Notes under the pieces: generated by a model | Told to the model about the DNA's origin: nothing | Databases searched by the model: none | What the model saw: the letters and a program-made list of their open reading frames with translations, nothing else | Program-made: the position numbers and the translations under genes | Assembly (NCBI GenBank): GCA_020353535.1 | Contig: CP070696.1 | Coordinates: 1,435,048-1,499,047 of the forward strand | Direction: 5' to 3' | DNA from: Spirochaetaceae bacterium | Lineage (GTDB): Bacteria > Spirochaetota > Spirochaetia > SZUA-6 > DRHE01 | DNA: 64,000 bases | In this document: positions 1 to 12,124 of the stretch, one piece after another | Numbering within the stretch: the stretch's first letter is position 1 | Layout: every line of letters starts with the position of its first letter

Positions 1-1
1 C

Positions 2-34
2 TGGCCGCTCACGCGGCTGGGTGGCATCCGCTAG
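2..34 (+). CDS. 3' end of upstream gene, possibly a second signal peptidase I
   Basis: The only frame closing just before lepB reads WPLTRLGGIR and then TAG, and the lepB ATG follows immediately. The downstream signal peptidase itself ends in YWPLSRTLKL, and many type I signal peptidases end in a similar WP-[FL]-[ST]-R motif. I infer that the gene cut by the window edge is a paralogous signal peptidase, giving a tandem pair. Only ten residues are visible, so this rests on one short match. Confidence 0.45.
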   Translation, partial: WPLTRLGGIR

Positions 35-784
35 ATGTATTCGACCTACGAACGTTACAGCTCGGGATTCGCTGCCCGTATGGGCAGGGGTCTTGTACGA
101 AAACTGGTCAAGCTGTTTATAGTCACGCTTTTACTTTATCTCATCATCTCCAGTATGTTCCTGGCGACTTTTCAGGTGGAATCCAGGTCCATGGAACCGC
201 TGCTTAAGCCAAAGGACCGCATCTTCGTTTCCCCCTTGATTTATGGAGCCAGGTTTCTCTTCTTTGCCGCCAAACTTCCCCCGGTACGCGATCCAGAGCG
301 GGGGGATATCGTGGTTATCCGTTCCCCCATGTATAGCCGTCCCGCCTTGCCCGTTTCGATTATCGAACCTCTTGTTCGTTTTTTCTCATTTCAACGGGGC
401 GGCGTGGTCCGGGACGATTCCGGAAGGCGAGTTCCGGCCTACATGATAAAGAGGATCGTGGCGGTGCCCGGGGACACGATTAAAGTCTCTGGATTTACAG
501 CCTACATTCGCCCCGACGGGGGCAGCACCTTCGCTGCTGAGCAGGAGCTGATCCCCCAAACCTATGAGGTATTCATCGGTTCTCTCCCGGAGGGGTGGGC
601 GAAGGAGTTCCCTTTTTCCGGAGAATATCCGGCTGTAACATTGGAAGAGGATCAGTACTTCCTTCTTGGGGACAACCGACAGGGTTCCAGTGACTCCCGA
701 TCCTGGGGACCGGTCACCCGGGATCAGCTTGTGGGCAGAGTGATCTATCGATATTGGCCGTTGTCACGCACCCTCAAACTATAA
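35..784 (+). CDS. lepB: Signal peptidase I
   Basis: Membrane-anchored serine protease that removes signal peptides from exported preproteins; 249 residues. One N-terminal membrane segment (about residues 25-48) is followed by the box B motif SRSMEPLL with the catalytic serine, then MIKRIVAVPGD with the general-base lysine, and box E LGDNRQGSSDSRSWGPV near the C-terminus. About 50 extra residues between the serine and lysine boxes are within family variation. The ATG directly follows the stop of the preceding gene with no strong SD; an internal ATG at 80 is possible but leaves a shorter cytoplasmic tail. The 3' end overlaps the convergent histidine kinase gene by 6 bp. Confidence 0.93.
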   Translation: MYSTYERYSSGFAARMGRGLVRKLVKLFIVTLLLYLIISSMFLATFQVESRSMEPLLKPKDRIFVSPLIYGARFLFFAAKLPPVRDPERGDIVVIRSPMYSRPALPVSIIEPLVRFFSFQRGGVVRDDSGRRVPAYMIKRIVAVPGDTIKVSGFTAYIRPDGGSTFAAEQELIPQTYEVFIGSLPEGWAKEFPFSGEYPAVTLEEDQYFLLGDNRQGSSDSRSWGPVTRDQLVGRVIYRYWPLSRTLKL

Positions 785-3304
785 GCTCGCTTCTGTTTCT
801 ACCGCCTGAAGGTCGCTCTCACTGATATCGCCGCTTTTCAGTAGACCATCGATGAAGGCCTTGATCAGGGTGGGATCAAACTGGCTGCCGCTGTGCTTGA
901 GTAGCTCCCTTGCTGCGGTGACCGGGGAGAGGGCTTTTCGGTAGGGTCGGTCGCTGGTCATGGCATGATATGCATCGGCGATGGCGATGAGCCGGGCATA
1001 GAGCGGTATTTCCTTGCCCTTCAAACCGTTTGGATAACCCGTGCCGTCGAAATGTTCCTGGTGAGCCAGCACGATTCGACTCACCTCTTTGTACGACTCA
1101 TGATTACCCAACAGGTTCGCCCCGAGCTCGGAATGCGTCTTCATAACAGTCCATTCCTCCTCCGACAGTCCGGATTCTTTCAGTAAAATCCGGTCCGGGA
1201 TGCCCAGCTTCCCGATATCGTGGAGTAGAAGGGAATCCCGTAGAACCTGATCCACCTCCAGACCGATCTCATCGGCTATCATCGTGCCTAAGGCAAGCAC
1301 ATCCCGCGAATGCCCTGCGGTCTTGAAATCCCGCATTTCGAGGGACTGGGAGAAGCTCATGCTCAGCTCCTCCATGCGCATCTTTAATTCTTCTGTGTGG
1401 GCGAGGGCGAGTTGAAACTTCCGCATGGTAAGGAGGTTCTTGATGCGGGCATCCAACTCCCGAATGTTAACAGGTTTGGACAGGTAGTCGTCTGCTCCTG
1501 TTTTCAGCCCTTGAATTTTAGAATCCAGTTCGTGCTTGGCGGTGATGAGAATAACCGGGATATGCATGGTATTCTCATCTGATTTCACCTTGCTCACCAA
1601 CTCGAAACCGTCCATGCGAGGCATCATTACATCGGAGACGATAATATCCGGTTGCTCATTGCGTACGCGGTGCCAGCCGTCCAGTCCATCCTCGGCGGTA
1701 ATCACGCCATGCCCGAAGCGTGTGAGCATCTTGCTGATGTAGTTGCACAGGTCCGCATTGTCTTCCACTAGCAGTACCACGTCGCTCGCTGTCTGTACGT
1801 CCGTTTTGCTTTCCAACTCCTCCGCAGGCTCTAGAGGGTACAACTCCTTCTCGATCAAGGCCAGATCGTCCAGCGAAACCTTGGCTAGATCCGCTTTTCT
1901 GCGGTCTTCAATTCTGCGCTCCTGGCCCTTGAACGTGAGGCTCAGCTTGCGTCGTTCATCCATTCTGCGTTCGATGAAGGCGTCAGGTACGATTTTGTCG
2001 AGATTGTCCGGAAATTGCATAACGAAGTGGGTTCCCTTGCCCTCTTCGCTGAACACCTCGATCGATCCTTTCATCAGGTCAATCGCTTCCTTGACGATGG
2101 TCAAGCCCAGACCGGTACCCTCATATCTCCTGGTACTCGAGGTATCCACCTGTTGGAATCTCTTGAATATATGAGGTAGATGGTCCTTCGGAATGCCGAT
2201 GCCAGTGTCTTCTACTTCGATTACTATAGATCCTTGTTTTTTGCCCGTGCGTATGGTTACTGAGCCGCTTTCAGTGAATTTTATGGCGTTGCGCAGCAGA
2301 TTCATGAGAATCCGCTCAAGCTTGTCAATATCGAGATAGAGAGGTCGGATGTTGTTCTCTCGCACATACCTGAGATTTATCCCTTTTCGTTCCGTGACAT
2401 CCTCGAATACCGCTATGATATCCCGTATCGTCTCATCCAGATCCACCGGTCCGAGGCGCAGTTCCATCTTGCTGGCTTCGAATTTGGAAAAGTCGAGCAT
2501 CTGGTTGATCATATCCAGAAGTTTCAGGCTGTTTCTGTACATCTGGCTTATCAGCCTTGCTTGTTCCGGCATCAATTCGCCCATATCACCCTGATAGAGA
2601 CTCTGAATCGGACTGATCACGGAAGTCAGCGGGGTACGAACCTCGTGACTCACATTCGCGAAGAACTGGGATTTGAGAATATCCAGTTTCTTCAATTCTT
2701 CGTTGGCCTCGGCCAGGCTCTGCCGGGCGCTGAACTCCCGAAATCGTATCTGAGTGCCGAGATAGGAGCTGAGAATGACCAGTGCGATCGTACACAACAG
2801 AAAAAAGTTGTTGTTCAGTAGAATAGCCAGATCATCGATCGGTTGCCTGAGTAGGATGGGTACGATATAGGCAGCGTAGATGATTGCGCAGATGATGATT
2901 GTTCTCCTGGTATCCAGAGGTAGGATCGAAATGAAGGCCAGCAACACGAGATTGATACCGGCGTAGTAAGGTGAGAGATACCCACCCACCATGTGGACCA
3001 TCACGGTGATAGACAGACCGCAAACAAGGTACTCAATCATTGCGATCTCTCTTGGGAATCGGGCACCAAATCTGGTTCGGATCAATAGATACACAATCAA
3101 ATTTGCGATGACAACCCCGACTCGAATCAGAATGAGTCGAACGAAGTAATCCGGATACAGAGCGAAATCGAGAAGCCCGAAAAGTGAGAATGCGATACTG
3201 GCTACAATAGCAGTGTTTTTTGTGTCACGGATGGCCTTTTCGCAAGTTTCAACAATAAACTGCTTTTGGAGTTGTTCATGTAACGAACGGTTTCTATCGG
3301 TCAT
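779..3304 (-). CDS. Membrane hybrid histidine kinase with REC and HD-GYP output
   Basis: 841-residue signalling protein and last gene of the five-gene cassette. Residues ~30-185 hold about six hydrophobic segments (membrane sensor). A HisKA domain follows with SHEVRTPLT (phosphoacceptor H220), then an ATPase with N box NLLRNAIKFT, G1 VEDTGIGIP and G2 GTGLGLTI. A basic linker leads to a receiver domain with VSDVMMP (D558) and K610. The C-terminus is an HD-GYP domain: H665, HDIGK (695-699), HQEHFDGTGYP (748-758). HD-GYP domains hydrolyse c-di-GMP, so the inferred role is a membrane signal lowering c-di-GMP through phosphorylation. The second His of the usual HHE is Gln here. It follows the radical SAM gene by 34 bp and is probably co-transcribed. 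Family calls are firm; the ligand is unknown. Confidence 0.93.
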   Translation of the reverse strand: MTDRNRSLHEQLQKQFIVETCEKAIRDTKNTAIVASIAFSLFGLLDFALYPDYFVRLILIRVGVVIANLIVYLLIRTRFGARFPREIAMIEYLVCGLSITVMVHMVGGYLSPYYAGINLVLLAFISILPLDTRRTIIICAIIYAAYIVPILLRQPIDDLAILLNNNFFLLCTIALVILSSYLGTQIRFREFSARQSLAEANEELKKLDILKSQFFANVSHEVRTPLTSVISPIQSLYQGDMGELMPEQARLISQMYRNSLKLLDMINQMLDFSKFEASKMELRLGPVDLDETIRDIIAVFEDVTERKGINLRYVRENNIRPLYLDIDKLERILMNLLRNAIKFTESGSVTIRTGKKQGSIVIEVEDTGIGIPKDHLPHIFKRFQQVDTSSTRRYEGTGLGLTIVKEAIDLMKGSIEVFSEEGKGTHFVMQFPDNLDKIVPDAFIERRMDERRKLSLTFKGQERRIEDRRKADLAKVSLDDLALIEKELYPLEPAEELESKTDVQTASDVVLLVEDNADLCNYISKMLTRFGHGVITAEDGLDGWHRVRNEQPDIIVSDVMMPRMDGFELVSKVKSDENTMHIPVILITAKHELDSKIQGLKTGADDYLSKPVNIRELDARIKNLLTMRKFQLALAHTEELKMRMEELSMSFSQSLEMRDFKTAGHSRDVLALGTMIADEIGLEVDQVLRDSLLLHDIGKLGIPDRILLKESGLSEEEWTVMKTHSELGANLLGNHESYKEVSRIVLAHQEHFDGTGYPNGLKGKEIPLYARLIAIADAYHAMTSDRPYRKALSPVTAARELLKHSGSQFDPTLIKAFIDGLLKSGDISESDLQAVETEASL

Positions 3305-3338
3305 TTTTCATGTCTCTCTACATATGAACTACGTCCGA

Positions 3339-4655
3339 TCATGAAACCAGTTTCTCACAGATTTTCCTGAAGTAGCGGCTCCGCCGGTTGTTGCTATCTT
3401 CGTTATAGACGGCTCGGTAGATTTTCAACAGATTGGTTTCCAGTTGTTCCGGAGCAAAAAAGGGATGGCGAATTACTGCATTCCAAACTGTATACCACTT
3501 CCAATCGTTATGGAGAATCCTGTTTTCTTTTTCCAAGCGCTCTCGCAATCGGCTTCCGGGAAATGGCGTAAGAATAGTTATTTGAGTTCCCAGAAGGTTG
3601 TGATGATTTATAAAGTCGATGGTTTTCCCTATCGTCTGGTCGTTATCGGCATCAAAGCCTATTATGAATGAACCATATACTCCGATGCCGTTGCGTTGAA
3701 TTCTCTCTATGTACTCGCCGTAGCGCCTGAACCTTTTCGCTTTCCACTGGTCCTTATTCAAACTTTGGACGTTACTCTCGAGCACACTTTCCAGTCCGAT
3801 CAACAGAGTGCGGCATCCGCTTGCATGCAGGTTCGCAAGGAATTTTTCAGAGGTCGCGACTTCGATGTCACAAACAGCAAACCAAGAGAAGTTGAGATCT
3901 TTAAATGCTTCGACAAGCGCCTCTGAAAACTTGCGATTGACAAACATATTATCATCGGCGAAACCAATCTGGGCCAGCTGCCAATATTTTTTTACCTCCC
4001 GCACCTCTTCAAGAACCTGGGATACGTTTTTATGTTTGTACCTCTTTCCGTATATGTTGGAGGCCACACAGAACTCACAATCATGTGGGCATCCACGGGT
4101 AGTTTGGATATAGACAACAGGATATTTGTACTTTGCCAACAGATCGTAGCGAGGCAAGGGAGATTTTGTGATATCGACGGCGGGATAGCGCTCCTGGTCG
4201 TATACGCTGCCAGGGAAGCCTTTCATGAAATCATCTACAAAACACGGCCAGGTATATTCCGCCTCCCCTATAAACACCGTATCTGCATGTTTTATAACCT
4301 CATCACTTTTCACCGATGCATGGATACCACCTATCGCAACGTGACACCCACGTCGTCGAAACTCTGCCGAAATTTCATAAGCCCGGTTAGCCTGCTGAGT
4401 CATAGCGGTGATACCAACGATATCATAGGGCTGGTCGAAATCGATTTCCTCTCGGTTTTCGTCGATTACCGTCACCGCGTGTATATCTGGCGTCAAAGCC
4501 GCAATCGTCGGTAAGGCTACTCCGATGCCATTCCAAAAGTGCAGAATGGTCCTCATTTCCCTGGAGGTAGTCACGAATTCGGCAAACTCACGGTTCTTGC
4601 AGAGGAACTCTCCCTTCGGGGAGATGAGGGCTATGTTGAGTTTACCCTTATCCAT
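3339..4655 (-). CDS. B12-binding-domain radical SAM enzyme
   Basis: 438 residues. The N-terminal ~140 residues form a cobalamin-binding-like Rossmann domain (DIVGITAMTQQANRAYEIS, then GCHVAIGGIHAS), without an obvious DxHxxG axial-histidine motif. The radical SAM core follows with TTRGCPHDCEFC, giving C189, C193 and C196 for the [4Fe-4S] cluster, then GFADDNMF, LLIGLESV and GSFIIGFDADND strands typical of the TIM barrel. Relatives include BchE-, HpnP- and HpnJ-like enzymes that methylate or rearrange unactivated carbons. It overlaps the ACP gene by 8 bp, so the substrate could be an ACP-bound acyl chain or a lipid; that is inference from context. The reaction cannot be assigned from sequence alone. 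Confidence 0.9.
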   Translation of the reverse strand: MDKGKLNIALISPKGEFLCKNREFAEFVTTSREMRTILHFWNGIGVALPTIAALTPDIHAVTVIDENREEIDFDQPYDIVGITAMTQQANRAYEISAEFRRRGCHVAIGGIHASVKSDEVIKHADTVFIGEAEYTWPCFVDDFMKGFPGSVYDQERYPAVDITKSPLPRYDLLAKYKYPVVYIQTTRGCPHDCEFCVASNIYGKRYKHKNVSQVLEEVREVKKYWQLAQIGFADDNMFVNRKFSEALVEAFKDLNFSWFAVCDIEVATSEKFLANLHASGCRTLLIGLESVLESNVQSLNKDQWKAKRFRRYGEYIERIQRNGIGVYGSFIIGFDADNDQTIGKTIDFINHHNLLGTQITILTPFPGSRLRERLEKENRILHNDWKWYTVWNAVIRHPFFAPEQLETNLLKIYRAVYNEDSNNRRSRYFRKICEKLVS

Positions 4656-4926
4656 GGGTTTTCCTATAGAGGACCTCGATGAGATTCAAAAAATCAGCGA
4701 CTGTTTCGATATCTGCGAAGGCGGTTTCATCGATTTCTATATCGAGATGCTTTTCACACGTTGCGATGATTTCCATTGCCATTAAGCTGTCTATTCCCAA
4801 TTCCTCACGGATTATGATGTCATCGGCAAACTCCTCCGGGTCGATTCTGGATATGCGAGATACGATCTGTTTTACGCGCTGCCTGATTTCCGCTGAGGTG
4901 ATCTGTTTTGTGCTTTGCGGTTCCAT
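4648..4926 (-). CDS. Acyl carrier protein
   Basis: A small acidic carrier protein of 92 residues from this start. The motif ELGIDSLMAMEII contains the DSL serine that receives 4'-phosphopantetheine, and the flanking helices (RVKQIVSRISRIDPEEF, ETVADFLNLIEVL) match the four-helix ACP fold. I prefer the ATG at 4926 because AGGA lies six bases upstream. Two upstream starts, ATG at 4950 and GTG at 4953, overlap the ligase stop codon and would add 8-9 residues with a poorly spaced SD. It sits between an AMP-ligase homologue and a radical SAM gene, so it is more likely a dedicated pathway carrier than the fatty-acid synthase ACP. No phosphopantetheinyl transferase is nearby. Confidence 0.9.
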   Translation of the reverse strand: MEPQSTKQITSAEIRQRVKQIVSRISRIDPEEFADDIIIREELGIDSLMAMEIIATCEKHLDIEIDETAFADIETVADFLNLIEVLYRKTHG

Positions 4927-4949
4927 CAAAAATCCTGGTGGTTCGAACA

Positions 4950-6356
4950 TCACCCTGGATCGAGCGAGATTTTAGGGATTTTATACGGCGCCAACAACTC
5001 TTTCAAAGAGGTAGCAAGCTCCTTCGTTTTTCCCGGGGTGATTGCCTTCCGGCTTGCACGGCAACGAGCAAACAAGGCATTGTTCTTATAGTGTATATCG
5101 ACTTCAACAATTTGACCATCCAGCAGGATTGCCTTTCTGATCTCATTGAGATCGACCATATTTCCGTTGATTTTTCGTGTTTCCTTCAATTCCTCAGAGA
5201 AAACAAGATGATTCCCATCAAAATATCCGCGATCCCCGGTTTTAAACCAATCGCCATCGAAAGCCTCGCGTGTTTCCCGCTCCCTGTCTAAGTACGTTTT
5301 CGTCATATAGGGTGTATTGAGAAGAATTTCACCCGATCCAATTCCGGTCGAATCGTCAATCCGGCACTCGATCTGGTCGCAGATAGGTCCGATGGTACCA
5401 CCCTTGGGCTCTCCCCGAATGTTTCTGCTGACGGGGGTGCACTCCGTAAGACCATACCCATGAAGGACTTCCACTTCAAAGCCCTGCGATATTTTATGAT
5501 AGTCTTCGACCGTCAACAGACTGCCACCGCATACGAAAGCCCGAAGGGATCTCAATTTTTGAGCTTTTTCTTTAAGACGAAGCAGCAGCAAATAGTAATG
5601 GGGAACAGAAGTGAGATATTCAATAGAATAATCCCTGATTATCTGGAATATGATTCTTGGATGGAACGTTTGGGCAATCACTCCCGTCACGTTATATAGG
5701 ATCGGAACGGCGATACAACCTACAAGTGTGAATATATGAGACATTGGCAATGTGATCAGCATTTTCTCGCCGGGATTGGCTTGAAGACCCTTCTGCAGCG
5801 TTTTGGCACCATGAAGATATTGCCGGTGAGGGACCTCTGCGCCGATGGGATAGCCGTATCCCCTGTAGGTGTAGTTTACCGTGGCGATATCCTCGGACAC
5901 TTCATGTGATTCCCGAGAAGAAATCTGGCTCTGAACAAGCCGAAGACCTGCCGATGATCGTTCAATCACCACGACATCCTTCAGATATGATCTGATAAAT
6001 GGCAGGTGGTTGGTTTCAGTGATAACTGCCTGGGGTTTGCAGTTTTTGAAGATCTCGGCCAATGCGAGTTTTCGGAACTCCAACTTCACCATCACCGGAA
6101 TTGCCTGCAGTTTCATCAGGGCAAGCAGGCTCGTGATAAACTCTACGGAGTTGTACAGGAATATGGGAACCAGGAAGCCCTTCTGAATCCCCCACCGTGC
6201 GAATTGTTCGGTTCTTTCTTGTATGCGCAGTCGGAGTTCCAAGGCGGTGACTGGTACACCCTTGCCGTGGGGACTGCATTCGATGAAACAGGGATTGTTC
6301 TTCCATTCCAGCAACGACGTGTCTATTCGCCCATTTAAGGTCAAGTCAACCGACAA
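4950..6356 (-). CDS. AMP-forming ligase homologue (acyl/ANL superfamily), atypical active site
   Basis: 468 residues of the acyl-CoA synthetase/adenylation superfamily, probably supplying an acyl group to the neighbouring ACP. Recognisable motifs are A5 (GYGLTECTPVSRN) and A7 (FKTGDRGYF). The phosphate-binding A3 loop, normally Ser/Thr/Gly-rich, is replaced by YTYRGYGYPIG at about residues 162-172. The protein also stops at PYKIPKISLDPG, before the usual A10 lysine. Shorter than typical members (500-550 residues), so it may work with altered chemistry. The start is TTG with GGAG seven bases upstream; no in-frame ATG occurs before residue 81. It lies 51 bp after the PilZ fusion gene and is coupled to the ACP by overlapping stop and start codons. 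Confidence 0.85.
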   Translation of the reverse strand: MSVDLTLNGRIDTSLLEWKNNPCFIECSPHGKGVPVTALELRLRIQERTEQFARWGIQKGFLVPIFLYNSVEFITSLLALMKLQAIPVMVKLEFRKLALAEIFKNCKPQAVITETNHLPFIRSYLKDVVVIERSSAGLRLVQSQISSRESHEVSEDIATVNYTYRGYGYPIGAEVPHRQYLHGAKTLQKGLQANPGEKMLITLPMSHIFTLVGCIAVPILYNVTGVIAQTFHPRIIFQIIRDYSIEYLTSVPHYYLLLLRLKEKAQKLRSLRAFVCGGSLLTVEDYHKISQGFEVEVLHGYGLTECTPVSRNIRGEPKGGTIGPICDQIECRIDDSTGIGSGEILLNTPYMTKTYLDRERETREAFDGDWFKTGDRGYFDGNHLVFSEELKETRKINGNMVDLNEIRKAILLDGQIVEVDIHYKNNALFARCRASRKAITPGKTKELATSLKELLAPYKIPKISLDPG

Positions 6357-6407
6357 CGAGGTACTCCGACATATGAGATAACCGTGTATATCGTGAAATA
6401 TATGCTG

Positions 6408-9400
6408 TTACGAACGTCCGCCGGTATTTTCATCGCCCTGTAGAGGTTTTTGGGCAACAAGGACATGTGCCTGGGGCGGATTTCCCAGTGATTGAAATAT
6501 TCTGATGGATTGGAAACCGCAGTTTTCGCATAAGCCGATCAGTTCTTCCGCAGTAAAGAACCTGAAAAATCCTTCCTGTTCGAGCTCAAACAGACTGGCT
6601 GCCTCATTGAGCATATCCGTGGCGGCGAGCCGTTTGTCTGAATTCCTGAAAGCGTTGGGCTGTCCACCAGATTCGTTCAATTTTTCAATATAATTCGTAA
6701 AAATCACAGAGACGTCGCTGTCTGGCTTCATCGATGAAATCAGTGCTGTTCCACCAGGTTCGAGTATTCGGTAGAACTCAGCCACTGCGTATTGAGGATT
6801 GAATAAATAGGACAGGAATAGGCTGGCAACCAGCTTGTTGAAGGAATTGTTCTCAAACGGGTAGAAAAGGGTGAGCCCTTGATTTCCTAAACGCAGTTGA
6901 TCGAAATCAGGTAACGACGTTGTTGTTGAGGTGAGCCCTGTTGGTACAATCCCGCCGCCGCTGCTCAACCTTTGATTCGCCAAACTGAAAAAGCCGAGGT
7001 TCTCACGAAGGAACCGCGCCGCCTTGTTGAACTCCACTATCACATGGTAGCATTCTTGTCCCAATTCATACTTATAATTCAAGGAGGTGGAGGGCAAAGG
7101 TATTTCACCCTTCATGATTGGTAGTAGCTCCTCCCAATCCGAGGCGATCAGCTTATCGATATAGGAGTTTTTCAATCCTTGTATTTTGTTGCGTAGATAG
7201 TTGAAATCGAGTTCGGGATTGCAGACATACTCACAAATAGGTAGCCAGCGGTTTGGTTCCAGGTTCGTGGCAGAATAATTTATATGCACGGAGGCTAGAT
7301 TGGGGTATCGCGCCAGAAGGCGGGTACATTTCATTTTTACTTTTTCTAGTGCTTCAGGCACCAGATCTACCGCCACCAACTCAGCGTGGTCCTCGTGCTG
7401 GAATTGTTTCTTTGCCTCCTTGAGGATTGATTGTAATAGCAATCCTGTACCACATCCCAGATCTATTAACCGGTCTCCTGGTCTGAGATCAATGAGGCGG
7501 GCTTCGAGGTCCATGAACTGGCGAAACTCTGCAAAATTGTCATAAAAATCGTAACCAGGATCCGAGATTTTATTTCCAATTAGGTAGCTTTTCCAGTAGC
7601 TTTCGGCATCGATTCCTTTCTCATTTTGTAGCCGTTCTCGCTCATAGGAAATGAGACGTATCATCTCATCGTGGTTCGGATCCACCGTGTTCATGCTTCT
7701 ATTGTGGAGCCAACGAAAGATACGGGAAGTGATGATTCGATATACCTTGAGCGCATCGTCACTGGTGTGTAAATTGTGCCCGGCGGGAACCTCAATGACT
7801 TCCCTGTTGGAATACGAGTTAATACTCATAATGTCGCTTACTTCCCCCACATCCACCCATTTATCGTATGTACCGTAGATCCATAAGGTGGGAATGGAGA
7901 TCCTCGACATATCTCGACGGGAATCGGTCATGTATGCAAATTTGTTCTCCACAAGACCACGAGCAAGGCTATCCATGTCGATAAGGTGCCCAAGTATACC
8001 CATGATACCGTTGTTGTTACCCATCTTGTAGTTGCCAATAACATCGAGTCCGCCGAGTATTTTCTGAAGAGTGGATTGGGCGGAAGGGACACCCATTGCA
8101 CTGATCCAAAGGTCGATCCCGTGATTTGGCCTTGTAGCCAGATATCGTCGGGCGTCGATCGAGGACATGCTGAAGGATACGAGAATGACCCTCTCCGGCG
8201 TGAACCAAGGGTTGGAGTAAACGTACTCTAGAGTCGTTTCGAGATCATCGATTCCCTGATTGGCCGTATAGTGCAGCATCTCATATCCCCGGCTGACTTT
8301 CTTTGCACAGTTGTAGCTCTCTCCGGGTTTATTAATACCGTCGTAGCGAATGGTAACAATATCTTTGTTTTGCACCGAAAAATTGGCGAGCAAGGTAGCT
8401 ACTAATGGAGCCAATACCTCTTTCTTTTTACCGAATCCGGGGGGCATTATCACGACCGGTGCTTTTACGAAAAAACGAGTCGCGTTGATCAAGGCTCTAA
8501 TGCCCTGTTTATCTCTATTCGTGTACTCTACAACGCGGCACTCGCATCCTGAGGAACGCGCCTTCTCCACATTTTCTGAAGCCCGATCCCATTCGATCTT
8601 TTCAACTTTGCTGAACCGGTAGACGCTGCGTTCAATACCTGCTTCGAGGCCGAGATGTAGAACGATTTTCTGCTCGTGCAGCGCTGATTCCTGTAGACGT
8701 CTAATTTGTCCCTGGGTGCCTAATCCCCAGCGTTCGTCCATCTCATAGCGCACCATCTGCCCGATACAAAACACACCGCGCATACTTACCGGTAGCTCGA
8801 CCTCGCAGAGGAAACCGTTGCGACTGATATCAATCAATCTCCCCTCGCATATCTGTCGAGAGCCGTTTTCAGGATGTGGGTGCAGCAGAACTGTTACACC
8901 AAGATCGGTCGAGAGCACCTTGCGCTGGTGCGACCTTTTCTCGCTTTGGAGCACTACCTGAGGAAGCTTGAAGGCCAGTCTGTTTTTTTGGTTTCTCGCG
9001 ATTGTCGTTTTGAAGTAGTGAGCTCCTCCGTTGGTATATGTGAAATAAGCGGTTAGCCCGGGAACCGGCAGGTCCTGTTTGGTTGATAAAAATACGATCG
9101 CCTCAAACTCCTTTTCCCTCGTGTTTAGGAGTTCGAGTCTGGATTCGTAAATGGCCAGTTGGCCCTCAAGCAATACGTTTAGTACCGTACCATCGTTTAG
9201 CATGTCTTGAAACATTCCCACGATGCGTTCGCGGTTTTTAATACTGTATCCTGCCTCGGTACCGCATTGTATGAAATCGTCACAGAGATATTTTATTGCA
9301 GAGCTTGATGTTGAGGCGACGATGTAGTTACGAATACGTGCCTGGACGGTTTCCTTCGGATCCACAAACCTGAGCCCGGCACTTCGGGGTAGCTGAAATT

Positions 9401-10028
9401 CGTTACGGATCGTGTAGGTAATGTATCCGGATATCTGTATTCTACGTTTGTCTCCCGGCAGGGAGAAGGTCAATTCGATGGGTTCGTCAGGATTTAGATC
9501 ACCTTCGAAGCTGATTAGAAGCCCTTCAGTGGAGATGTTGTCGATGGAGACTATCCGAAGCCCAGACTTGTTTACCGAGATATCCCGAATCGAGCAGTCT
9601 GCACGCGGGATCTGCCGCATCTCGGAGTGATGTGGAGTATCGGCCAACTCCTTTTTCTTCATCTCCCGGATGTAGTTTTCGATGAGCAGAAGTTGGGCCT
9701 CCCCTTGGTAGGAGAACTCCAGGCCCAGGATGTTGGACTGCTCGTTACCATTGCCCGATTCGTAGCGGACGATTCGGCAGGGAAGCTCTAACGTGTGTTC
9801 TGAGTTGGGAAGGGTGAACGTGATCGATCGAACGGATTCGTAGGAATCGGGGAGGTTTACGACCACCTGCATGCCGGTGCGGCTGAGGTTGATTGCCTGC
9901 CCCGAAAATCGCCGGCCCTCGCCGACTAGTTGCACCGTTCCGCTATGTTCGATTCGGATATGCCTACGCTGATCCCGGTTTTCTACATTCTGGGGCTGCG
10001 CGAGATGTAAGCGATCCTCAGAAAACAT
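6408..10028 (-). CDS. Triple-PilZ / LuxD-like hydrolase / SAM methyltransferase fusion
   Basis: A 1206-residue cytoplasmic protein, first gene of the cassette. PilZ-1 has RRHIR (21-25) and NLSRTG (47-52). PilZ-2 has RQIPR (138-142) and NISTEG (164-169). A YcgR-N-like segment (~240-360) precedes PilZ-3 with RSHQR (365-369) and DISRNG (400-405). All three keep both c-di-GMP-binding motifs. Residues ~523-775 are an alpha/beta hydrolase: oxyanion region MPPGFG, nucleophile elbow SFSMS with S620 (as in LuxD-type acyltransferases rather than GxSxG), and plausible acid and base D722 and H751. Residues ~840-1200 are a class I methyltransferase with IDLGCGTG (855-862) and FYRILEPGG, separated by an unusually long insert. 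I infer a c-di-GMP-controlled enzyme releasing and methylating an acyl product. Domain calls are strong, the reaction is not. Confidence 0.88.
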   Translation of the reverse strand: MFSEDRLHLAQPQNVENRDQRRHIRIEHSGTVQLVGEGRRFSGQAINLSRTGMQVVVNLPDSYESVRSITFTLPNSEHTLELPCRIVRYESGNGNEQSNILGLEFSYQGEAQLLLIENYIREMKKKELADTPHHSEMRQIPRADCSIRDISVNKSGLRIVSIDNISTEGLLISFEGDLNPDEPIELTFSLPGDKRRIQISGYITYTIRNEFQLPRSAGLRFVDPKETVQARIRNYIVASTSSSAIKYLCDDFIQCGTEAGYSIKNRERIVGMFQDMLNDGTVLNVLLEGQLAIYESRLELLNTREKEFEAIVFLSTKQDLPVPGLTAYFTYTNGGAHYFKTTIARNQKNRLAFKLPQVVLQSEKRSHQRKVLSTDLGVTVLLHPHPENGSRQICEGRLIDISRNGFLCEVELPVSMRGVFCIGQMVRYEMDERWGLGTQGQIRRLQESALHEQKIVLHLGLEAGIERSVYRFSKVEKIEWDRASENVEKARSSGCECRVVEYTNRDKQGIRALINATRFFVKAPVVIMPPGFGKKKEVLAPLVATLLANFSVQNKDIVTIRYDGINKPGESYNCAKKVSRGYEMLHYTANQGIDDLETTLEYVYSNPWFTPERVILVSFSMSSIDARRYLATRPNHGIDLWISAMGVPSAQSTLQKILGGLDVIGNYKMGNNNGIMGILGHLIDMDSLARGLVENKFAYMTDSRRDMSRISIPTLWIYGTYDKWVDVGEVSDIMSINSYSNREVIEVPAGHNLHTSDDALKVYRIITSRIFRWLHNRSMNTVDPNHDEMIRLISYERERLQNEKGIDAESYWKSYLIGNKISDPGYDFYDNFAEFRQFMDLEARLIDLRPGDRLIDLGCGTGLLLQSILKEAKKQFQHEDHAELVAVDLVPEALEKVKMKCTRLLARYPNLASVHINYSATNLEPNRWLPICEYVCNPELDFNYLRNKIQGLKNSYIDKLIASDWEELLPIMKGEIPLPSTSLNYKYELGQECYHVIVEFNKAARFLRENLGFFSLANQRLSSGGGIVPTGLTSTTTSLPDFDQLRLGNQGLTLFYPFENNSFNKLVASLFLSYLFNPQYAVAEFYRILEPGGTALISSMKPDSDVSVIFTNYIEKLNESGGQPNAFRNSDKRLAATDMLNEAASLFELEQEGFFRFFTAEELIGLCENCGFQSIRIFQSLGNPPQAHVLVAQKPLQGDENTGGRS

Positions 10029-10039
10029 AGCAGTGCAAT

Positions 10040-10067
10040 AGTATCGTTACTAGAAAAAAAATTTCAA
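10040..10067 (-). promoter_or_regulatory. Predicted sigma70-type promoter of the PilZ cassette, near-leaderless
   Basis: On the minus strand TTGAAA (-35), a 16-base spacer rich in T, and GATACT (-10) lie just ahead of the 1206-codon gene. Only 11 bases separate the -10 from the ATG, and no SD is visible, so the transcript would start within a few bases of the start codon. Prediction from consensus only. Confidence 0.5.
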
Positions 10068-10073
10068 TAGTGT

Positions 10074-10108
10074 AAAAAAAAAAGTTACTGTCGGGCTGAG
10101 AGCCCGGA
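10074..10108 (-). terminator. Hairpin with T-tract upstream of the PilZ cassette
   Basis: Read on the minus strand, CGGGCT-CTC-AGCCCG (6 bp stem, 3-base loop) is followed after eight bases by ten T residues. The gap between stem and T-run is longer than in classical terminators. It sits between yebC and the cassette promoter, so it could stop antisense transcripts from the right, or act as an attenuator if a further promoter lies upstream. Confidence 0.35.
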
Positions 10109-10163
10109 TGGAGTCGGAATCCGGAGCTTTACGCGCTCAGACGCATCGGTCAGCCCACTCAGC

Positions 10164-10192
10164 TTGACACCCCAATGAGGGGCGTGTTAAAT
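10164..10192 (+). promoter_or_regulatory. Promoter of the yebC-ruvCAB-queA operon
   Basis: A perfect -35 TTGACA, a 17-base spacer and TTAAAT (-10) precede yebC, with GAAGGAG as ribosome binding site further down. The spacer contains CCCC-AATGA-GGGG, a palindrome that could be an operator. Strong by consensus; the regulator is unknown. Confidence 0.7.
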
Positions 10193-10216
10193 TCACCGAC
10201 GAAGGAGAAATAACCT

Positions 10217-10960
10217 ATGTCTGGCCACAGCAAGTGGGCCTCTATAAAGCATAAAAAGAGCGCCGTGGATGCCAAACGCGGCAAAGTGTTCACGAAAATT
10301 ATCCGGGAAATCAGCGTAGCCGCCCGTGCGGGCGGCGGGGATCCGGATGCCAACCCTAGATTGCGTACAGCCCTTTTAAAAGCGAAATTGTCCAATATGC
10401 CCAAGGACAACATCGACCGAGCCATCAAGAAGGGCACGGGAGAGATGGAAGGAGCCGAGTATTCCGAGCTGACCTACGAAGCCTACGGTCCCGGTGGAGT
10501 GGCGATTCTGGTCGAGGTGCTTACGGATAATCGGAACCGCACCGCTGCAGAACTTCGCCATGTTCTATCCCGAGCTGGGGGGAGCCTGGGGGAGAGTGGC
10601 AGCGTGGCCTACCTGTTCAAGCGCAAGGGCCTGATCGTGTACGATGCTTCGGAGTACTCGGAGGATGCGATCCTCGAAGTCGCTTTGGAAGCGGGAGCCG
10701 AGGACGTGAGTAAAGCGGACGGTGAGATCGAAGTCATCACAGAACCGGATGACTTCGAATCTATCCTGGAAGCGCTGGAGCAGGGCGAGTTCAAGCATCT
10801 GTCGGCGGAGGTTACCATGATCGCCGATGCGCAAGTTGCGGTACCCGAAGACAAGCTCGCGCAGATCCTCCGACTTATAGACACGCTGGAGGACCACGAC
10901 GACGTACAAAATGTCTCCACAAATCTGGATATTCCAGAGGGTTTCACCCTGGATGAATGA
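10217..10960 (+). CDS. yebC: YebC/PmpR-family regulatory protein
   Basis: 247 residues, usual family length, opening with the signature SGHSKWASIKHKKSAVDAKR. YebC proteins are conserved three-domain cytoplasmic factors. They have been called transcription regulators and, more recently, linked to translation of proline stretches (established knowledge, not visible here). The acidic C-terminal third (DTLEDHDDVQNV) is typical. It leads the Holliday-junction operon, overlapping ruvC by ATGA, an arrangement common in many bacteria. The start is ATG with a GAAGGAG site. Confidence 0.96.
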   Translation: MSGHSKWASIKHKKSAVDAKRGKVFTKIIREISVAARAGGGDPDANPRLRTALLKAKLSNMPKDNIDRAIKKGTGEMEGAEYSELTYEAYGPGGVAILVEVLTDNRNRTAAELRHVLSRAGGSLGESGSVAYLFKRKGLIVYDASEYSEDAILEVALEAGAEDVSKADGEIEVITEPDDFESILEALEQGEFKHLSAEVTMIADAQVAVPEDKLAQILRLIDTLEDHDDVQNVSTNLDIPEGFTLDE

Positions 10961-11469
10961 AAGTAATCCTCGGTATTGATCCGGGATTGGCCTCAACGGG
11001 GTATGGTGTCATTCACTGCTCTGGCAGCCGATTCCGCTGCATAACCCACGGCACCGTCCGAACATCTCCTAAAGAGGGAATGGGCGAGCGGCTGGTGAAG
11101 ATTCATCAGGGCATCATGGATATCATCACCACCTACGATCCTGAAGAAGCAGGCATCGAGACCGTATATTTTTCAAAGAACTCGAGAAGCGCTATTCCGG
11201 TTGCTCAGGCCAGGGGGGTGGTGCTTTACACCCTGGCTACCCGGGGTGTGCCTTTCGCCGAATACACGCCCCTGGAGCTCAAGCAGGCTGTTGTGGGTAA
11301 TGGGCGGGCGGAAAAGATTCAGGTACAAAAAGTGCTCAAGATGATCTTCAACCTCAAGGAGCTGCCAGCCCCGGATCATGCTGCCGACGCTCTGGCCGCA
11401 GCCTTTTGTCATGCCAATTTCTCGGGTTTTCGAAGTCATCTCACAGATTCGGGGACCAGACATGTTTAA
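10957..11469 (+). CDS. ruvC: Holliday junction endonuclease RuvC
   Basis: 170 residues, standard for the family. RuvC cuts four-way junctions after RuvAB branch migration. Acidic active-site residues are visible: the Asp in ILGIDPG (D8), the Glu in GIETVYF, and the Asp pair in DHAADALAAAFCH near the C-terminus. The ATG overlaps the yebC stop by four bases, and the 3' end overlaps ruvA by eight bases, indicating tight translational coupling. Confidence 0.96.
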   Translation: MKVILGIDPGLASTGYGVIHCSGSRFRCITHGTVRTSPKEGMGERLVKIHQGIMDIITTYDPEEAGIETVYFSKNSRSAIPVAQARGVVLYTLATRGVPFAEYTPLELKQAVVGNGRAEKIQVQKVLKMIFNLKELPAPDHAADALAAAFCHANFSGFRSHLTDSGTRHV

Positions 11470-12124
11470 CAGCCTCAGCGGTGAGATTACCTACAAGGAC
11501 GAAGAGCGCATCTTTCTCTCAAGCGGTGCGATCGAGTGGGAGATCTTCGTCAGTCGGAGCAGCAGCGACGATCTTCCGGAGGAAGGGCAAAATACCAAGG
11601 TATTTGTGTATTTGTACCATCGGGACGATCAGGTTCGTTTGTACGGATTTTCTCAAAGCTTGGAACGGGATGTTTTCCTGGATCTACTCAAGGTCGAGGG
11701 TGTAGGCCCCAGACAGGCGCTGAGAATCCTCTCCGGAGTGGAGGTAAGCCGTTTCATCGAAGCCCTGGAGGGGGAGGATCTGGAGCTCCTGTCGACTATT
11801 CCCGGAGTCGGTAAAAAAACTGCCCAGAAAATCATGCTGAAACTCAAGGGTAAGTTGCAAGTGTCCACGCCCGCGGGGATATCCCTTGAAGAGGATATCG
11901 TCAATGCCCTGGTAGGCATGGGATTCGACCGACGTGGAGCCAAAAGCGCCGTAGGTGCTGCGGCCCGCGGTCTTCGGGATAGTGAGCTTAACGCCGAAGA
12001 GCTGGAGCGGGAGCTGTTCAAGAATGCCCTATCCCAGCTCTCAGGGGGTTCCCAAGCCCCCGCCGGCGCGGCTGAGACCGGTTCTTCGAGGGCGAGTGAA
12101 CCGCGCGCCGGAGGGGCGTCGTGA
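11462..12124 (+). CDS. ruvA: Holliday junction DNA-binding subunit RuvA
   Basis: 220 residues from the ATG beginning [14 protein letters not shown]. An upstream extension that remains open within ruvC is not plausible for this family. The OB-fold domain is followed by paired helix-hairpin-helix motifs ([15 protein letters not shown] and [15 protein letters not shown]) and a C-terminal RuvB-contact domain ([21 protein letters not shown]). RuvA tetramers clamp the junction and load RuvB. The Ala/Gly/Ser-rich last ~20 residues are a non-conserved tail. The end overlaps the ruvB GTG start. Confidence 0.96.

Follow-up and report, generated by a model that had tools for sequence, protein, structure and literature searches.

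A five-gene spirochaete cassette joining c-di-GMP domains to acyl-carrier chemistry, in which sensor and enzymes appear to be exchanged together

An acyl signal, a hybrid kinase that senses it and an HD-GYP output are the elements of the Rpf/DSF system (RpfB/F/C/G): the acyl-chemistry genes, one of them encoding a fatty acyl-CoA ligase homologue (RpfB), lie beside those for the hybrid kinase and for a REC-HD-GYP protein acting through c-di-GMP (PMC3749722). In Ralstonia the acyl signal is made by a methyltransferase, PhcB, and has a dedicated membrane kinase, PhcS; the PhcB/PhcS types group strains by signal regardless of phylotype, that is, enzyme and sensor types co-vary apart from strain phylogeny (PMC11960443). 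Two peptide-signalling loci of Gram-positive bacteria combine hypervariable signal-making gene(s) and a hypervariable sensor half with a conserved output half: the hypervariable region of agr consists of the 3' part of agrB, agrD and the 5' part of agrC (PMC3673130), and in ComQXPA the N-terminus of ComP is variable, its cytoplasmic part conserved (PMC4008528). The six-helix domain of CqsS made an adenylate cyclase respond to CAI-1, from which it follows that six-helix membrane anchors can be receptors for such signals (PMC4821796). A spirochaete cassette with likenesses to Rpf, to Phc and to the variation pattern of agr and ComQXPA is described here.

The cassette occupies positions 779-10028 of the window (the whole 64,000-nucleotide stretch of a Spirochaetaceae genome that was analysed) as one operon on the minus strand, where all its features given below also lie. 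In order of transcription the genes are: gene 1 (PIL; 6408-10028, 1206 aa), a chain of two PilZ domains, a YcgR/PilZ unit, a LuxD-like hydrolase and a methyltransferase; gene 2 (LIG; 4950-6356, 468 aa, with a TTG start), an ANL (AMP-ligase) superfamily relative; gene 3 (ACP; 4648-4953, 101 aa), an acyl carrier protein; gene 4 (rSAM; 3339-4655, 438 aa), a B12-binding-type radical SAM protein; and gene 5 (HK; 779-3304, 841 aa), running from a six-helix membrane sensor through HisKA, HATPase and REC to HD-GYP. All five ORFs are confirmed at these places, with junctions of +51, -4, -8 and +34 bp. Rfam gave no match to a known cobalamin or c-di-GMP riboswitch in window 1-12000, and promoter and terminator scans did not rise above chance level. 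(A detail of the downstream end: gene 5 and a signal-peptidase-like gene at 35-784 are convergent and share six bases, window 779-784, where their stop codons meet.)

Conservation was searched within one phylum, presumably Spirochaetota. Gene 1 is rare in the larger phylum sample (6 of 393 genomes). Every one of the seven genomes sampled from the window's own family has it, two of them as pieces only; a second family has it in four of 20 genomes, and a third in one; a comparison with plasmids gave no match. (A 54-residue match at locus L007, found in a genome contig search by exact 8-residue words, was rejected as spurious.) In composition, the cassette genes have 45-51% GC over window 2001-10000, the remaining window ORFs 55%, and their GC3 is 52-62%, that of the other window ORFs 66%; this low GC is not taken as proof of horizontal origin, because every sampled genome of the family carries gene 1.

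Ten complete loci, from three families, could be compared: the window, L008-L011, L043-L046 and L129. At every one the five genes are contiguous and on one strand, and the arrangement, being so conserved, is not due to chance; wherever the contig was long enough, gene 1 was never seen without the other four. The order PIL-LIG-ACP-rSAM-HK holds at eight loci, the window's included, while L043 has PIL-LIG-rSAM-ACP-HK and L046 has PIL-rSAM-LIG-ACP-HK. Shuffling within a set that nevertheless stays together argues for a functional unit rather than for inertia. The window's family has yebC as one flank (in the window and L046; nearby in L044) and a signal-peptidase-like gene as the other; the flanks of the second family are inositol-monophosphatase-like and xseA-like genes (named by eye from sequence).

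Much of what the earlier note had read from the letters is borne out by these comparisons. ORFs and junctions agree with its minus-strand run of five genes with gaps or overlaps of at most 51 bp, and Pfam with its domain content in all but the hydrolase, which is weak in the window and is backed by homologues and by a LuxD fold. One conserved operon joining c-di-GMP domains with acyl-carrier chemistry is present at ten loci, with the c-di-GMP-binding and HD-GYP residues kept in all, one S-to-T change aside. At the ten complete loci the proposed co-occurrence holds throughout, the conserved order only outside L043 and L046; the opposite finding, genes standing apart without adjacency, was looked for and did not turn up around gene 1 on contigs long enough to show it. 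Nor did the literature searched yield a description of the five-gene set, of which the earlier note had known no described pathway.

Pfam recognizes three PilZ domains and a methyltransferase in gene 1. PilZ1 lies at 9663-9974, PilZ2 at 9294-9626 and PilZ3 at 8604-8963, directly preceded by a YcgR-N-like domain (8964-9293) that comes from the predicted fold. The predicted N-terminal half matches YcgR, MrkH and PP4397 as well as YcgR-N (5y6h), and the last of these matches makes the third PilZ domain, as modelled, one of the YcgR kind, preceded by a YcgR-N domain. The motif RxxxR is kept in all three PilZ domains at all ten loci, and (D/N)xSxxG likewise save for an S-to-T change in PilZ2 of L129; judged by motif, all three are thus putative c-di-GMP effectors. 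(A technical note: the structure models of gene 1 were built on shallow alignments, and that of the C-terminal half has a mean pLDDT of 69, higher in the domain cores.)

The alpha/beta hydrolase (7674-8471) is identified by its predicted fold and by Pfam in homologues: Acyl_transf_2 reaches only E 0.004 in the window protein and is matched in eight of nine gene 1 homologues (best E 8.8e-9). The best VIA-align match of its model is LuxD (1tht; Z 21.3, 241 residues, rmsd 3.1) of the LuxCDE fatty-acid branch; 1tht leads several esterases by just 0.4-2 Z, and the fold does not fix the substrate class. The modelled domain combines the LuxD fold with a Ser-Asp-His triad, S620/D722/H751, that is invariant at all ten loci. 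It differs from LuxD in being only about 16% identical, in its fusion to PilZ and methyltransferase domains and in having no LuxC or LuxE for company. (Stand-alone LuxD-like hydrolases occur elsewhere, at L062:6820-7746, with an Acyl_transf_2 match of E 2.7e-19, and at L063:4836-5762; in these two genomes, which belong to the same taxonomic order, each stands immediately after a MASE6-Hpt-HATPase kinase and small CheY-like genes, possibly a further pairing of an acyl hydrolase with a six-helix sensor.) The SAM methyltransferase that ends gene 1 (6441-7673; Pfam and predicted fold) aligns as a model with class I methyltransferases (Z about 18-20) and keeps its DxGCGTG motif at all ten loci. Its Pfam matches are split (residues 849-903 and 1055-1100) around an insertion of about 145 aa (6879..7313), by segment identities the fastest-changing part of the domain.

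Gene 2 is, at the level of the fold, a member of the AMP-binding family (PF00501, E 2e-43), and the level of detail is where it departs from it. Aligned to FadD13 (3r44) and MenE (5buq), whose P-loop reads YTSGTTGxPKG, it has the degenerate YTYRGxGxPxG (5841..5873), with T163, Y164, R165, G166 and G168 invariant in the ten cassette members. Nine of the ten proteins stop right after YKIP, before the A10 lysine, and that of L011 bears a short unrelated tail; the ATP P-loop (S/T-rich, GTTGxPKG) and the A10 lysine segment are accordingly absent at all ten loci, the MgATP and ribose/adenine-side motifs GYGLTE and TGD being kept. In ANL enzymes the P-loop and A10 lysine parts serve adenylation, and their loss puts ATP-dependent acyl activation by gene 2 in doubt. 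The claim that an AMP ligase here loads acyl groups is not supported as it stands: gene 2 is probably not a normal acyl-activating enzyme, and it may transfer or hold an acyl group instead. Cassette members are 41-45% identical to one another, other ligase relatives found in the phylum sample by the same search 30% or less. (A PEP-CTERM/exosortase-associated ligase-hydrolase cluster was also considered and set aside: NCBIfam models of that kind are not among the best matches listed for the five ORFs.)

Gene 3 is matched by PF00550 (E 4e-15), and its phosphopantetheine serine, S56, is invariant at all ten loci, as are the cysteines of the CxxxCxxC motif of gene 4 (C189/C193/C196). Gene 4 is matched by PF04055 (E 1.5e-15) and by the B12-binding PF02310 (E 9e-8), the latter a borderline match of 32.4 bits against a cut-off of 32.1. 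It is related to HpnJ, HpnR and the ladderane model and falls below every equivalog cut-off, scoring 116.6 of 577.6 bits with the nearest named model, HpnJ. The B12-radical SAM enzymes of HpnJ/HpnR/BchE type are thus the nearest named models, from which the cassette enzymes stand apart as a clade of their own that also takes in one protein from L033. (That contig, from another lineage, carries at L033:793-4792 an ACP, the cassette-clade radical SAM protein, 43% identical, a different sensor kinase and a response regulator; it is without genes 1 and 2, and the contig edge lies just upstream of the ACP/radical SAM set.)

Gene 5 falls into two halves. The output half (kinase, receiver and HD-GYP; 860..2692) follows lineage in its segment identities; HisKA, HATPase, REC and HD-GYP are fused in one protein in all nine members scanned with Pfam. 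The kinase histidine H220 and the receiver aspartate D558 are invariant at the ten loci, as are H695, D696, K699, H724, H748, H751, G756-Y757-P758 and D777 of HD-GYP, and the metal-binding and catalytic residues expected of an HD-GYP phosphodiesterase are thus, by alignment, in place. The sensor half (residues 12-195; 2720..3271) is a MASE8-like six-helix domain, its match weak even in the best member (E 3.3e-4); membership of the CqsS or RegB families was tried and rejected, neither giving a family-level match. Its loop motif HxxGGxxSPYYAG, with H104, G108, S111, Y113, Y114 and G116 invariant at ten loci, recalls the quinone motif GGXXNPF of the six-helix RegB kinases (PMC8191878); the two are similar and not identical, since S replaces N in the sensor's GGxxSPYY (or a variant of it). 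The resemblance keeps a redox or quinone cue in play, and a quinone may be the ligand. MASE8-like relatives in the same phylum sit on adenylate cyclase, SpoIIE, chemoreceptor and HD-GYP proteins: the sensor is a general module, of which the cassette versions make a close group. (At L117 and L119-L126 such sensors, on adenylate cyclase or SpoIIE proteins and often in tandem, lie beside small STAS-like and anti-sigma-like genes, named by eye; there too they look like a widespread signalling module.)

Set against the described systems, the cassette shares with Rpf a membrane hybrid kinase coupled to REC-HD-GYP, here fused and with its residues intact at all ten loci, together with adjoining acyl-chemistry genes and a ligase homologue. 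The differences are these: 1) the crotonase-family RpfF has no Pfam match in the five ORFs and does not appear among the NCBIfam matches listed; 2) synthesis would rest instead on an ACP, a B12-radical SAM protein, a LuxD-like hydrolase and a methyltransferase; 3) kinase, receiver and HD-GYP are fused, with no HPt domain such as RpfC has; 4) the synthesis protein itself carries fused PilZ domains, and the ligase is degenerate. Judged by its sequences, then, the cassette is not a member of Rpf, for want of RpfF, nor an ordinary adenylating ligase pathway, for want of the P-loop and A10 segment. The Phc system resembles it in having a methyltransferase and a dedicated membrane kinase but has a LysR regulator, not HD-GYP, as its output, and ACP, radical SAM, LuxD-like and PilZ domains are not described for it. 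With agr and ComQXPA, whose signals are peptides, it has no sequence relationship; what it shares with them is a pattern of variation.

That pattern emerges from pairwise identities among the ten loci. ACP, rSAM and the sensor half co-vary (r 0.60-0.70; sensor with rSAM 0.70, sensor with ACP 0.68, Mantel p 0.0004 for each). All three vary independently of gene 1 and gene 2 (r near 0), the sensor giving -0.04 with LIG, 0.07 with the hydrolase and -0.03 with the methyltransferase, and nearly so of the kinase output half, with which the sensor reaches about 0.4. Controlling for kinase output leaves the sensor-rSAM correlation at 0.69 (Mantel p 0.0005), and leaving out single loci keeps it between 0.66 and 0.85. 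(The pattern was found with nine loci; the tenth, added later, agrees.) Segment identities, Mantel and tree tests and breakpoints together mark out an exchangeable middle block, ACP-rSAM-sensor half (2720..4953); scanned in 60-residue steps, the breakpoints fall where LIG meets ACP and, within gene 5, near residue 190, where the sensor gives way to the kinase. L008 (f34) is the plainest case. Flanks, genes 1 and 2 and kinase output mark it as a member of the second family, with the kinase 80% identical to that of L009, of its own family, and 42% to that of L045 (f1). Its ACP, rSAM and sensor, in contrast, are 61%, about 65% and 55% identical to those of L045, against 36%, about 54% or less and 31% to those of L009. 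An assembly chimera is an unlikely explanation, because the block is just 55-65% identical to the nearest relative found. Between L043 and L045 the ligases are 67% identical and the kinase output halves 77-84%, as against 36% for the sensors, and L011 and L010 show the same pattern; for L043 and L011 either fast divergence or replacement may have produced it, and the sequences do not tell the two apart.

Co-inheritance of the block is imperfect. Against the gene 1 tree the sensor alignment gives AU p 5.6e-9 and against the kinase-output tree 3e-10, rejecting both, and it is only mildly at odds with the ACP (0.036) and rSAM (0.029) trees; the trees rejected by the rSAM alignment are those of gene 1, the ligase and the output half and also that of the sensor (AU p 3e-10), which is why perfect co-inheritance cannot be claimed. 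L008, L043 and L011 carry most of the mosaic signal: removing them together raises the sensor-output correlation to 0.97. Divergence is also uneven between congeners. The window and L044 agree at 90-91% in yebC and ruvC, 73% in ruvA, 76% in the signal peptidase and 85-92% in kinase output, as against 27-56% in PIL from PilZ2 on, 41% in LIG and 59% in the sensor. (A control for sensor divergence on other kinases of the window genome, against genome G296, recovered three ortholog pairs, not enough to build a null distribution.) Lineages thus appear, from their alignments, to swap the sensor half together with ACP and rSAM, apart from PIL, LIG and the output half. A sensor that evolves with ACP and rSAM and not with its own kinase suggests one that perceives the cassette's own product. 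The variation of synthesis genes and sensor half apart from the output half, carried mainly by three lineages, makes the cassette, by analogy, resemble a pherotype-type acyl signal system.

What might such a cassette do? The reading we favor, to which we give somewhat less than an even chance, is a self-contained unit for producing and sensing an acyl-type signal, of which the sequences show the architecture and the mosaic, and the chemistry, the ligand and the signalling role are what we infer. The substrate would be an acyl group that the LuxD-like domain of gene 1 draws from primary metabolism. Its holding or transfer would be the task of gene 2 and the dedicated ACP; on the ACP it would be modified by the B12-radical SAM protein; and gene 1 would methylate the substrate or the released product and see to release, presumably in that order. 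The product, or one made with it, possibly after leaving the cell, would be perceived by the six-helix membrane half of gene 5, whose His-kinase and receiver would control the HD-GYP phosphodiesterase, with a lowering of c-di-GMP as the likely sign; the three PilZ domains of gene 1 would read c-di-GMP and tune synthesis, closing the loop. The source genome, with 14 GGDEF and 12 PilZ matches, offers a setting in which this would make sense. Exchanging the ACP-radical SAM-sensor block as a unit would change product and receptor specificity together. Besides the limits of the mosaic and the quinone-like loop, two results count against the signal reading: no exporter or extracellular step was found, and no such cassette stands near the MASE8-like sensors on adenylate cyclase, SpoIIE and chemoreceptor proteins. 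The stronger proposal is of a kind of lipid-type signalling between cells not described before, with the structure of the signal set by a B12-radical SAM protein, an enzyme-receptor block traded between families, and c-di-GMP acting twice, as receiver of the signal (HD-GYP) and as control on synthesis (three PilZ domains). It is more speculative, and we advance it tentatively, as more probably wrong than right.

The same gene content would fit a regulated modified lipid or secondary metabolite that signals nothing: gene 5 would sense a cue from the membrane or from redox conditions (the state of the quinones, say), HD-GYP would set c-di-GMP, and PilZ would gate an acyl product destined for envelope or secretion. 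This comes close to the view of the earlier note, in which a signal sets c-di-GMP and so gates production; that is plausible and yet half the picture, given a sensor half that evolves with ACP and radical SAM. The RegB-like sensor loop (PMC8191878), the kinship of the radical SAM protein with lipid enzymes (HpnJ, HpnR, the ladderane model) and the generic use of the sensor family in the phylum all speak for it, and we regard it as possible, if rather doubtful, since it leaves unexplained why the sensor half is exchanged with ACP and radical SAM instead of being kept with its own kinase, and why synthesis genes and sensor are far diverged between window and L044 beside a kinase output and yebC/ruvC at 85-92%. 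Could the mosaic, on the other hand, mean nothing at all? In the common order ACP, rSAM and sensor are neighbors, and a single neutral tract of recombination could be enough to link them with no function involved: conserved gene ends, among them the strongly conserved kinase and receiver parts, would serve as anchors, the fast middle would be replaced at random, and the linkage of sensor with rSAM would be mere adjacency, in a signal that comes mostly from three lineages. A neutral tract should, however, take in LIG or kinase parts, whereas all three mosaic lineages switch at the LIG/ACP and sensor/kinase boundaries; and in L046 LIG lies between rSAM and sensor, yet both fall in the same broad range of similarity (one locus, and weak evidence). 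We consider neutral exchange unlikely.

If the signal reading is right, five genes would contain a full signalling circuit, with c-di-GMP serving as output and as control of synthesis, and this among bacteria for which the literature searched describes no lipid quorum-sensing system. B12-radical SAM enzymes would also turn out to help set the identity of the signal. The natural mosaics would then be ready-made allele swaps for testing receptor specificity. Even without cell-cell signalling, the cassette plainly shows c-di-GMP domains joined directly to a biosynthetic enzyme, and a conserved relative of the AMP ligases stripped of its ATP-activating parts.
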